From: Candidatus Moraniibacteriota bacterium
Lineage (GTDB): Bacteria; Patescibacteriota; Minisyncoccia; Moranbacterales; UBA2206
Direction of reading: 5' to 3'
Assembly: GCA_013334765.1 (NCBI GenBank)
Contig: JAAXWW010000001.1
Coordinates: 1 to 39,815, forward strand
DNA: 39,815 nt
Positions 9,782 to 28,976 of this stretch are shown here, in pieces. A program made the position numbers and the translations under genes. The notes beneath the pieces are model-generated. The model saw only the letters and a program-made list of their open reading frames with translations, was not told the origin of the DNA and ran no database searches. How positions within the stretch are numbered: the stretch's first letter is position 1; every line of letters starts with the position of its first letter.

Positions 9782-10963
9782 TTATAGATATCTTCTTCCT
9801 TTGAGCTTTTCAGGTAAATAAGTTTGTTCAGAACTGTCTTCCATGGGCGTGTACTTGTATCCTTTGCCATAATCTAGCTCTTTCATGAGCTTGGTCGGGG
9901 CATTTCTCAGATGGAGAGGGACGGGAAGATTGGTGAATTCAATGGCATCTTTCTTGGCTTTCTGGTAAGCGGCATAGGCGGTGATGTCCTTTTTCGATTT
10001 GGCAAGATATATGACGCATTGGGCGAGGTGGACGTTGCACTCGGGATATCCGAGCTTATGGCAGGCATCGAAGACGGCATTGGCGAGGATGAGGGCGGTG
10101 TTGTTGGCAAGTCCGATGTCTTCGGATGCGAAACGCACCAGGCGCCTGGCGATATATTTCGGGTCCTCTCCGCCTTCGACCATTCTGGCCAGCCAATAAA
10201 GCGCCGCGTCAGCATCGCCGCCACGCATGGATTTGTGAAGAGCTGAGATGATGTTGTAGTGTTCTTCTCCCATCTTGTCATAGAGTAGGTGCGCCTTCTG
10301 AAGCGCCTTCTGAATGAGTTCCGGGGTTATGTTCCGGTTCTGTTCCAGGCATGCCTCAAGGGTGTTGAGCGCCATCCTGGCGTCCCCGTTGGCGGACAGC
10401 GCCAAGAGCTTCAAGGCTTCTTTCGATATCTTGGCTTTCGGCTTCTTGTTTTCGCTATTGATTATTTCCAGCGCCCGTTCGATGATCGACTCCAGATCTT
10501 TTTCCTGGAGCCTTTCCAAAACGAAAACGCGCGTCCTGGAAAGAAGGGCGCTGTTGACTTCGAAGCTCGGGTTTTCGGTGGTGGCGCCGATGAGGGTGAG
10601 TGTTCCGTTTTCAACATAGGGGAGAAGGGCGTCTTGCTGCGCTTTGTTCCAACGGTGGATCTCGTCTATGAACAGGATGGTTTTCTTTCCGGCAGACTTG
10701 CTCTTTTGGGCCTCCGCGATTATTTCCATTAGCTGTTTCTTGCCGGAAGAGACAGCGCTTAGTTTTATGAAGGCGGATTGGGTTTCTGAGGCGATGATGT
10801 TGGCGATGGTGGTTTTTCCTGTTCCGGGAGGCCCCCAGAGGATCATTGATGGGACGGAATCGCTTCTGATGGCACGAAGAAGATAGGAATCTTTTCCGAT
10901 CGTTTTTTCTTGTCCGATGAATTCATCGATTTTTTTGGGGCGGATGAAGTCCGGGAGAGGCAT
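9782..10963 (-). CDS. rarA: replication-associated recombination protein RarA (MgsA)
   Basis: A 393-residue AAA+ ATPase of the RarA/MgsA/WRNIP1 family that acts at stalled replication forks. The N-terminus PDFIRPKKIDEFIGQE is family-typical. Walker A is GPPGTGKT (44-51) and Walker B is LFIDEIHR (97-104). Sensor 1 is GATTENPSFEVNSALLSR. The C-terminal tetramerisation domain includes the block MRGGDADAALYWLARM. Length fits (E. coli 447; many bacteria 400-440). The start ATG at 10963 has no SD. A promoter with a palindromic -10 region lies just upstream. Confidence 0.95.
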   Translation of the reverse strand: MPLPDFIRPKKIDEFIGQEKTIGKDSYLLRAIRSDSVPSMILWGPPGTGKTTIANIIASETQSAFIKLSAVSSGKKQLMEIIAEAQKSKSAGKKTILFIDEIHRWNKAQQDALLPYVENGTLTLIGATTENPSFEVNSALLSRTRVFVLERLQEKDLESIIERALEIINSENKKPKAKISKEALKLLALSANGDARMALNTLEACLEQNRNITPELIQKALQKAHLLYDKMGEEHYNIISALHKSMRGGDADAALYWLARMVEGGEDPKYIARRLVRFASEDIGLANNTALILANAVFDACHKLGYPECNVHLAQCVIYLAKSKKDITAYAAYQKAKKDAIEFTNLPVPLHLRNAPTKLMKELDYGKGYKYTPMEDSSEQTYLPEKLKGRRYL

Positions 10964-10985: not shown

Positions 10986-11019
10986 AGTGATATTGTATCA
11001 CTTTATATTATGAAAGCAA
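10986..11019 (-). promoter_or_regulatory. rarA promoter with palindrome over the -10
   Basis: On the minus strand there is a -35-like TTGCTT (11019-11014), a 16-nt spacer and -10 TACAAT (10997-10992). The -10 is embedded in the inverted repeat AGTGATA-ttg-TATCACT (10986-11002 in plus-strand reading), a possible operator. It sits between the upstream terminator and rarA. Confidence 0.5.
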
Positions 11020-11032
11020 GAACTTTTTTTTG

Positions 11033-11096
11033 GGAAATAAAAAAGCCCCCGGGAGAACTCTTGGTCGCATGTTGGCGATTGAGTTCTCCGTGGGGG
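11033..11096 (-). terminator. strong terminator of the unassigned unit
   Basis: Read on the minus strand: CCCCC, then GGAGAACTC (11089-11081), a 20-nt loop, GAGTTCTCC (11060-11052), GGGGG and CTTTTTTATTT. The unit therefore ends before the rarA promoter. Confidence 0.8.
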
Positions 11097-11154
11097 TGGA
11101 TTCGCTCAGGGGCATCACCGGCAGCTAGTTAGCTGCTAGTAAAGGTGATTGCCC

Positions 11155-11187
11155 CTACATAGGCTGAAATAGTTTCCGGCAGGGCAT
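11155..11187 (-). CDS. possible 10-residue peptide (second small ORF)
   Basis: ATG at 11187 preceded by AAAGGAGACAAAAA, a good SD at correct spacing. It reads MPCRKLFQPM then TAG. The stop abuts the next hairpin stem. At ten residues it may be a leader peptide or chance. The SD quality, unlike the core genes nearby, is the only support. Confidence 0.3.
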   Translation of the reverse strand: MPCRKLFQPM

Positions 11188-11249
11188 TTTTTGTCTCCTT
11201 TTTTCGGCGCTGCCTCGCGATCGATGGCGAGGCAGCCGCCGGCGCAGGG

Positions 11250-11330
11250 TTAGACCAAGGACAGGGCGGCACAGCGATGATCCCGATGATCCTCCAGGTT
11301 GGGGGCGGCGTGCGGGCTGAAATTGGGCAT
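11250..11330 (-). CDS. possible 26-residue peptide (first small ORF)
   Basis: ATG at 11330 preceded by GGAGGACAA, one of the best SD sites in the window. The 26-residue product begins MPNFSPHAAPNL, is rich in His, Arg, Ala and Pro (includes HRDHR) and ends SLV-TAA. No transmembrane segment or known family is seen. The first in the unassigned unit; function unknown. Confidence 0.4.
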   Translation of the reverse strand: MPNFSPHAAPNLEDHRDHRCAALSLV

Positions 11331-11387
11331 TTGTCCTCCAGATGTTATCCATCAGCGCAACGCATGATTGCATCACGCTGACTTGAT

Positions 11388-11415
11388 TGTATAGCATGCC
11401 TGAAAATATTGTCAA
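11388..11415 (-). promoter_or_regulatory. consensus sigma-70 promoter
   Basis: On the minus strand: perfect TTGACA (11415-11410), a 16-nt spacer, and -10 TATACA (11393-11388) with an extended TGC just before it. Predicted start near 11382. One of the strongest promoters in the window. Confidence 0.8.
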
Positions 11416-11539: not shown

Positions 11540-12415
11540 ATGATGATGAAAACTATGTCCGGAAAGGTAATCGATGGCAGGAAAATAGCTCGGGAAGTCG
11601 GTGGGGGTCTCAAAAAAGAGGTGGAAACCCTGGGGAAAAGGGGGATTGTTCCGCGTGTTGCTGTCATTCTGGCAGGGAACGATCAGGCTTCCGAGATATA
11701 TGTCAGGAACAAACGGCGGAAAGCCGGGACTCTCGGAATCGAATCGGAGCTCTTTCGTTTCGGGTCCGATGCTTCTCAGGAAGAAATCGAAGATTGTATC
11801 AGGAAATTGAATAATGACAAGAATGTGCATGGAATCCTGGTGCAGCTGCCGCTTCCGGGACATATCGACAGGAACAAGATAGTGAGCCTGATCGATCCGG
11901 GAAAAGATGTTGATTGCTTTCATCCCGAGAATGTCGGCAAAAACACCATCGGAGGAATGAATTCGACAATGGTTCCGGTGACGGCGACAGGAATAATGAA
12001 GCTGCTTGAATTTTCAGGAATCCCAATAGAAGGAAAAAAAGCGGTCGTGGTCGGGAGGAGCAATGTGGTCGGGAAACCGACAGCGATCCAGCTGCTTCAT
12101 GCCGGTGCTACTGTCACGGTTTGTCATTCCAAGACGGAGGATCTCAAAAAAGAATGTCTCGAGGCGGATATTTTGGTTGTTGCGACAGGACACGCCGGTC
12201 TCGTGACGGCGAATATGGTCAAAGACGGCGCGGTTGTCATTGATGTTGGCATAAGCGCGCTTCCGGAGGGCGAAATGGTCGGGGACACTGATTTTGAAAA
12301 AGTGAAAGAGAAGGCGAGCTTCATCACTCCGGTTCCGGGAGGCGTGGGACCGATGACGATCATTATGCTTATGAGAAATGTTGTTGAAGCAGCAAAGGCA
12401 CGAGAACAGGAATAA
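11540..12415 (+). CDS. folD: bifunctional methylene-THF dehydrogenase/methenyl-THF cyclohydrolase
   Basis: A 291-residue FolD, interconverting 5,10-methylene-, methenyl- and 10-formyl-tetrahydrofolate in one-carbon metabolism. Active-site residues are seen as Y54-x-x-x-K58 in SEIYVRNKRR. The conserved VQLPLPGHID and DVDCFHPENVG blocks follow. The NADP-binding region has VVVGRSNVVGKP, and the C-terminal family signature PVPGGVGPMTI is present. Length is usual (about 285). Start choice is loose: ATGs at 11540, 11543, 11546 and 11555 are all in frame, and MSGKVIDGRK at 11555 best matches homologues. Confidence 0.95.
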   Translation: MMMKTMSGKVIDGRKIAREVGGGLKKEVETLGKRGIVPRVAVILAGNDQASEIYVRNKRRKAGTLGIESELFRFGSDASQEEIEDCIRKLNNDKNVHGILVQLPLPGHIDRNKIVSLIDPGKDVDCFHPENVGKNTIGGMNSTMVPVTATGIMKLLEFSGIPIEGKKAVVVGRSNVVGKPTAIQLLHAGATVTVCHSKTEDLKKECLEADILVVATGHAGLVTANMVKDGAVVIDVGISALPEGEMVGDTDFEKVKEKASFITPVPGGVGPMTIIMLMRNVVEAAKAREQE

Positions 12416-19917: not shown

Positions 19918-20288
19918 GCCAGACTAGCTCATCGGTAGAGCGAAGGACTGATTTTCGGTCCGCTTAGCAGCAATGCTAAGTTGAAATTGGGTGAATTCGA
20001 GGAAGCCTAAAGTCGTAGCCGAAAAATGACCAAGGTAATCTCGAGCCAATCCTTCGCCGGGAGGCTACGGATTGCAAGCAAGTCTTGAATTGAAAAAAGG
20101 CTTTGCCTGCAGTAGCTTTAGCGGAGGCAGGTGTAGAGACTAGCAAGTGAGTCCCAACGATAATCTTGCGCTAGCGCCCAACTCCCTTGATTATATCCAG
20201 GGATGAAGAAATAGTCCGATCCTTGGGGAAACCCAAGAAAAGAAGAAGGAAAATCCTTGCGTGCCCAGTTCAACTCTGGGGTCTGGCA
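19918..20288 (+). tRNA. tRNA-Phe(GAA) interrupted by a group I intron
   Basis: Exon 1 is 19918-19949 and exon 2 is 20249-20288, giving a 72-nt tRNA. The acceptor GCCAGAC pairs perfectly with GTCTGGC (20281-20287). The anticodon stem AAGGA (end of exon 1) pairs with TCCTT (exon 2), enclosing CT + GAAAA, the classic Phe loop with anticodon GAA. The T-arm is CCCAGTTCAACTCTGGG. The intron sits between U33 and G34. An alternative reading as tRNA-Ile(GAT) was considered and rejected. CCA is not encoded. Confidence 0.88.
19950..20248 (+). ncRNA. group I intron in tRNA-Phe (299 nt)
   Basis: A self-splicing group I intron with no ORF. P1: the exon end GGACU pairs with intron GGUCC (19957-19961), with the required U:G wobble at the 5' splice site (U33). 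P10: intron UUUUC (19952-19956) pairs exactly with the 3' exon start GAAAA. The intron ends in G20248 as required. The P7 guanosine-binding strands are visible as AGACTA (20137-20142) and TAGTCC (20212-20217). A P2-like hairpin is CTTAGCA-gcaa-TGCTAAG (about 19963-19980). Its size is like the small tRNA introns of cyanobacteria and Azoarcus. The exact fold of P3-P9 was not worked out. Confidence 0.85.
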
Positions 20289-28947: not shown

Positions 28948-28976
28948 TTTACATGTCATGCCGCATGACCTATAAT
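28948..28976 (+). promoter_or_regulatory. promoter of the signalling locus with palindromic operator
   Basis: -35 TTTACA (28948-28953), 17-nt spacer, -10 TATAAT (28971-28976). The spacer contains GTCATG-ccg-CATGAC (28955-28969), a perfect 6-3-6 palindrome, well placed for repression of the response-regulator gene. Confidence 0.75.

Follow-up and report, generated by a model that had tools for sequence, protein, structure and literature searches.

Does the spacer between rarA and folD hold a gene of its own, and if so, of what kind? The window, by which we mean the whole 39,815-nucleotide stretch of DNA analysed, covers the first 39.8 kb of a contig of 306 kb in a genome of 0.97 Mb. The closest named relatives of its RarA in the public collection are Moranbacteria and uncultured bacteria. 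A compact unit occupies 11415-11040 of the minus strand between the two genes (Table 1). It shares its strand with rarA, the start of which lies about 75 nt beyond the terminator of the unit. We read the unit tentatively, at a probability close to even, as a stand-alone small gene that has recently arisen in this spacer or arrived there as cargo, and that may function as an mRNA for peptides or as a small RNA (sRNA) with a dual function. The series of promoter, first SD, second SD and terminator is complete on one strand, which argues for such a gene. So do the unusual strength of its starts and of its folding, the outcome of a scan for like units, an analogous unit in G001, the promoters that rarA and folD keep where the unit is missing, and further small ORFs of this genome that have a strong SD and a terminator. 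Counted against it are the lack of a homologue, the intermediate coding statistics of ORF1, and the half-occluded state of its SD in the predicted fold.

Table 1. Features of the unit and of its neighbours, in window coordinates.
Feature	Position	Strand	Remarks
Sigma-70-type promoter, -35 TTGACA 11415-11410, -10 TACAAT 11391-11386	11386..11415	-	18-nt spacer, 11/12 match
5' hairpin, 14 bp, at predicted transcript 5' end	11351..11382	-	mean pair probability 0.95
SD1, GGAGG, precedes first ATG (11330)	11335..11339	-	-9.3 kcal/mol to anti-SD
Micro-ORF 1, 26 codons, MPNFSPHAAPNLEDHRDHRCAALSLV	11250..11330	-	hexamer score between coding and non-coding
Hairpin separating the two ORFs, G+C-rich	11205..11241	-	pair probability 0.88-1.0
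SD2, AAGGAG	11195..11200	-	-8.9 kcal/mol to anti-SD
Micro-ORF 2, 10 codons, MPCRKLFQPM	11155..11187	-	
Hairpin 3' of ORF2, covers ORF2 stop codon	11107..11157	-	pair probability 0.89-0.98
Intrinsic terminator, CCCCC/GGGGG + GGAGAACTC/GAGTTCTCC stem, then T run	11040..11096	-	-28.4 kcal/mol, probability 0.95-1.0
rarA promoter, separate, extended -10 TGA TACAAT, outside the unit	10987..11019	-	motif recurs before rarA in relatives
rarA (MgsA/RarA AAA+ ATPase)	9782..10963	-	PF12002, PF16193; downstream neighbour of unit
folD	11540..12415	+	PF02882, PF00763; divergent neighbour of unit

The promoter is near-perfect, as the original prediction had it, and offers an alternative -10 element, TATACA at 11393-11388, at a spacing of 16 nt. 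RNA polymerase would start near 11380 and produce a transcript of about 340 nt, which would open with a stabilising hairpin, fold strongly and stop at its own terminator before reaching rarA. The predicted fold has four hairpins, with mean pair probabilities of 0.88-1.0: one at the 5' end, one in the middle, one separating ORF2 from the terminator, and the terminator itself. The strong stems and the strong terminator that had been claimed are both borne out. The two SD-led ORFs of the claimed lengths are likewise present. SD1 and SD2 would drive the synthesis of peptides of 26 and 10 residues, and the transcript would then be an mRNA for peptides or an sRNA with a dual function. Both peptides are hydrophilic (GRAVY -0.48 and -0.22) and have no membrane helix. 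In about half of the predicted ensemble, SD1 is paired with 11263-11257, inside ORF1, and this pairing would permit control of ORF1 translation. The analysis establishes the sequence signals and their excess over chance, the absence of relatives from the genomes compared and the variable content of the spacer; transcription, translation and any peptide or RNA function of the unit we infer from sequence signals of this kind. The two starts seem to share a repeat (SD-ACAAA-ATGCCC...ATTTCAGCC), but the resemblance is at chance level, reached in 160 of 500 shuffles (32%) in one test and in 90 of 1000 (9%) in another.

The pairing energies of SD1 and SD2, -9.3 and -8.9 kcal/mol, compare with a gene median of -3.3 kcal/mol. 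An SD as strong as SD1 precedes 6% of the 237 called genes on the contig, and one as strong as SD2 precedes 8%; the two thus outdo about 93% of the contig's genes. In the window, SD1 is equalled by none of the 22 called genes and SD2 by one, and they rank among its best, as had been stated. Folding of the unit is also exceptional, with a z-score of -5.4 against shuffled sequences and of about -3.6 when the terminator is left out, the lowest value among 80 coding segments of similar G+C content being -2.6. Strong structure and a terminator are what a purely regulatory, untranslated sRNA would have, one that acts as an antisense RNA on targets in trans or binds a protein and in which the SD-like stretches serve otherwise. 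The hexamer score of ORF1, intermediate between coding and non-coding, fits such an RNA as well. We nevertheless consider it improbable, because two SDs at functional spacing from an ATG are hardly expected by chance: only 1 of 300 dinucleotide shuffles places two such SD-led starts in the transcribed part. The G+C content of the unit, 0.58, had been described as above that of the surroundings; this holds against the AT-rich spacer (0.33-0.45), and the unit exceeds the adjacent coding DNA (0.50-0.56) only slightly.

We scanned for units of the same layout, defined by a promoter matching at least 10 of 12 positions, an SD-led ORF of fewer than 60 codons within 160 nt, the absence of a longer SD-led ORF, and a terminator within 750 nt called by a folding-based finder. 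The strict scan returns three matches on the 306-kb contig and none on a reversed-sequence control, a contrast that is partly post hoc, as the rule was set after the corresponding unit of the related genome G001 was known. Of the other two matches, that at 28948 has a poor terminator and that at 165503 lies ahead of another gene. A relaxed scan of about 0.6 Mb of further contigs adds nine matches, again with none in the control; those inspected are mostly the starts or interiors of ordinary genes. The relaxed-scan match at C6 ~37100 (minus strand) is a similar intergenic unit with ORFs of 22 and 59 codons.

Relatives of the unit were sought at the level of sequence, structure and family. An Rfam scan, suggested together with the original prediction, assigns the unit to no family at gathering or relaxed thresholds, the best sub-threshold E-value being 0.17 or worse and chance-like. 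The frames of the unit have no Pfam match, and a tRNA/tmRNA scan finds neither kind of gene at its position. Blastn of the unit against 94 related genomes retrieves only the unit itself, as does a covariance model of its 3' half in 55 related genomes; single-sequence covariance models also matched the unit's own palindromic hairpin on the opposite strand. Blastn against phage and plasmid records gives chance scraps only, and exact 23-24-mers of the unit in viral contigs yield nothing beyond chance. A lack of conservation of both the ORFs and the stems had been named as an outcome that would refute the gene; neither is kept in any of the genomes compared, so that this outcome is reached for genus distance and beyond. 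Since no relative shares its sequence, the unit is probably a young, lineage-specific small RNA or peptide gene, or else a remnant.

The position of the unit, on the rarA strand and closely upstream of that gene, raises the alternative of a cis-acting leader of rarA, in which leader peptides and the terminator would attenuate read-through into rarA. The G001 unit stands in the same relation to rarA, as a leader would. In sequence, however, rarA has its own extended -10 promoter beyond the terminator, and this element (TGA TATAAT-like) is kept before rarA in family members with and without the unit; the unit is thus its own transcription unit and dispensable as a rarA leader. No competing anti-terminator hairpin was seen in the predicted fold, and the terminator pairs at a probability of 0.95-1.0. 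To our knowledge, rarA is not a biosynthetic gene of the sort typically under leader-peptide control, which also counts against a leader. We regard this alternative as very unlikely. The -10 element of the rarA promoter sits in a palindrome, GTGATACAATATCAC (10987-11001, minus strand), the equivalent of which in G001 is GTGATAGGATATCAC; the palindrome is a possible operator.

The same spacer is occupied differently in related genomes. Genus g8 (L003, L004, L007, L009), nearer to the genome of the window than G001 by RarA identity, has a bare spacer of 70-90 nt. In G019 (L006) the spacer contains AT-rich DNA of about 320 nt, and in G007 (L005/L076) one further gene. Where the unit is missing, relatives still have both folD and rarA, each behind a promoter of its own. 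In G001 (L010), a different genus, the spacer holds an analogous unit about 580 nt long that points the same way. It has a TTGACA/TATACT promoter, an SD with a pairing energy of -8.6 kcal/mol, an ORF of 30 codons, a G+C-rich, strongly folded body (z about -5.4 without the terminator) and a CCCCC/GGGGG terminator. The two units have no detectable sequence relation, and the covariance models of the window's unit do not match the G001 units. Blastn of the G001 unit in 37 genomes finds no relative, and Rfam assigns the G001 loci to no family. A second orphan unit elsewhere in G001 (L059) has an SD of -12.8 and a 4-codon ORF, and the folding of its body is not unusual.

Bare, AT-rich, extra-gene, cassette and orphan-unit states together mark the spacer upstream of rarA, which in most of these genomes adjoins folD, as a variable site that takes different cargo. 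The unit would have arisen or arrived recently as such cargo, which differs between genera. Separate arrivals of the units in the window's genome and in G001 cannot be told from a single fast-evolving element. There is a small probability that Moranbacteria keep a fast-evolving class of micro-ORF RNAs that come to lie in fixed spacers, rarA/folD among them, a class that would be defined not by sequence but by position and by a layout of promoter, SD, micro-ORF, folded body and terminator. At L012, a GIY-YIG-like ORF, recognised by eye, lies upstream of rarA between copies of a tRNA-like sequence, an arrangement that resembles the invasion of a tRNA gene by a homing element.

The strongest rival to a stand-alone young gene is a decayed one-gene cassette, that is, a small orphan gene broken by deletions and frameshifts, with the micro-ORFs as remains at its starts. 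Moranbacteria UBA1362 (L078) has, directly upstream of rarA, an intact one-gene cassette some 200 codons long, complete with strong promoter, strong SD and terminator, and the unit in G001 has a frame free of stop codons over about 184 codons, which is not the frame of the SD-led start. Intact one-gene cassettes of like layout also occur in the window's own genome, among other small ORFs with a strong SD and a terminator; that at C1:264622-264518, for example, encodes 34 aa and, like the unit, has its own promoter, strong SD and strong terminator and no operon neighbours. These cassettes hold ORFs of 34-88 codons, whereas the unit has only 26 and 10. Against decay, coding-like hexamer use is absent from every frame of the unit at any length, no protein relative of its frames was found, and tblastx and Pfam searches for pseudogene traces give nothing convincing. 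Decay would also leave unexplained the second strong SD with its well-placed ATG, and folding stronger than that of any coding control. We therefore consider a decayed cassette rather unlikely, and retain the stand-alone gene as the preferred reading.

Small RNAs with short ORFs are the closest known counterparts of such a gene. A short coding ORF has been estimated to occur in no fewer than about 10% of bacterial sRNAs (PMC5521070), and VcdRP is an sRNA with an ORF for a 29-residue protein (PMC8672173). SgrS, RNAIII and VcdRP resemble the unit as small independent RNAs with a terminator and an SD-led ORF of 10-50 codons. By its sequence signals the unit combines an independent promoter and terminator with short ORFs whose SD strength points to functional translation starts. 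It differs from these RNAs in having two micro-ORFs, no sequence relation to them, and neither a known target nor a conserved region for base pairing, and its host is an uncultured Moranbacteria-like bacterium. The description of the unit as a complete gene of no known class stands in part: it is an orphan without Rfam or Pfam match and has its own promoter and terminator, and it is a candidate for a functional gene class whose ORFs and stems are not conserved in the genomes compared. "No known class" should moreover be softened, since sRNAs that contain a short coding ORF have been described before (PMC5521070, PMC8672173). We found nothing relevant in the literature on small RNAs of Patescibacteria.

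Two other kinds of small transcript share parts of this layout. Type I toxin-antitoxin mRNAs (hok, ldr, ibs) are likewise short and folded, with a small ORF and an occludable SD, but encode hydrophobic peptides, unlike the hydrophilic ones of the unit; the promoter scan lists no plus-strand promoter-like sites within the unit. Leader-peptide attenuators also place a short, SD-led ORF ahead of hairpins and a terminator, with a gene lying downstream. The unit differs from them in the separate promoter of the downstream gene and in that neither a regulatory codon run nor an antiterminator was found.

If real, the unit is a compact and very young gene of a reduced-genome bacterium, in which a full set of expression signals surrounds hardly any coding sequence. 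The spacer in relatives is empty, filled or differently filled, and how small genes are born or die in Patescibacteria could then be tested directly.

Further small elements are present in the same genome. Stand-alone small ORFs that combine a strong SD with a promoter or a terminator lie at C1 21330-21569 (+), 264518-264622 (-), 272925-273113 (-) and 298328-298585 (+); the 34-aa ORF at C1 264622 is very hydrophobic (GRAVY 1.81). An intergenic gap at C1 231563-231660 (+) contains two very strong SD-led ORFs of 3 and 10 codons, with a hairpin and a T run behind them and no clear promoter. A LOOT RNA (RF03000) lies at C1 ~58248-58371 (-), in a 6.7-kb A+T-rich stretch (57326-64074) without called genes. 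In the window, a group I intron (Rfam RF00028, 77 bits) at 19940-20238 (+) directly follows a tRNA-Val gene.
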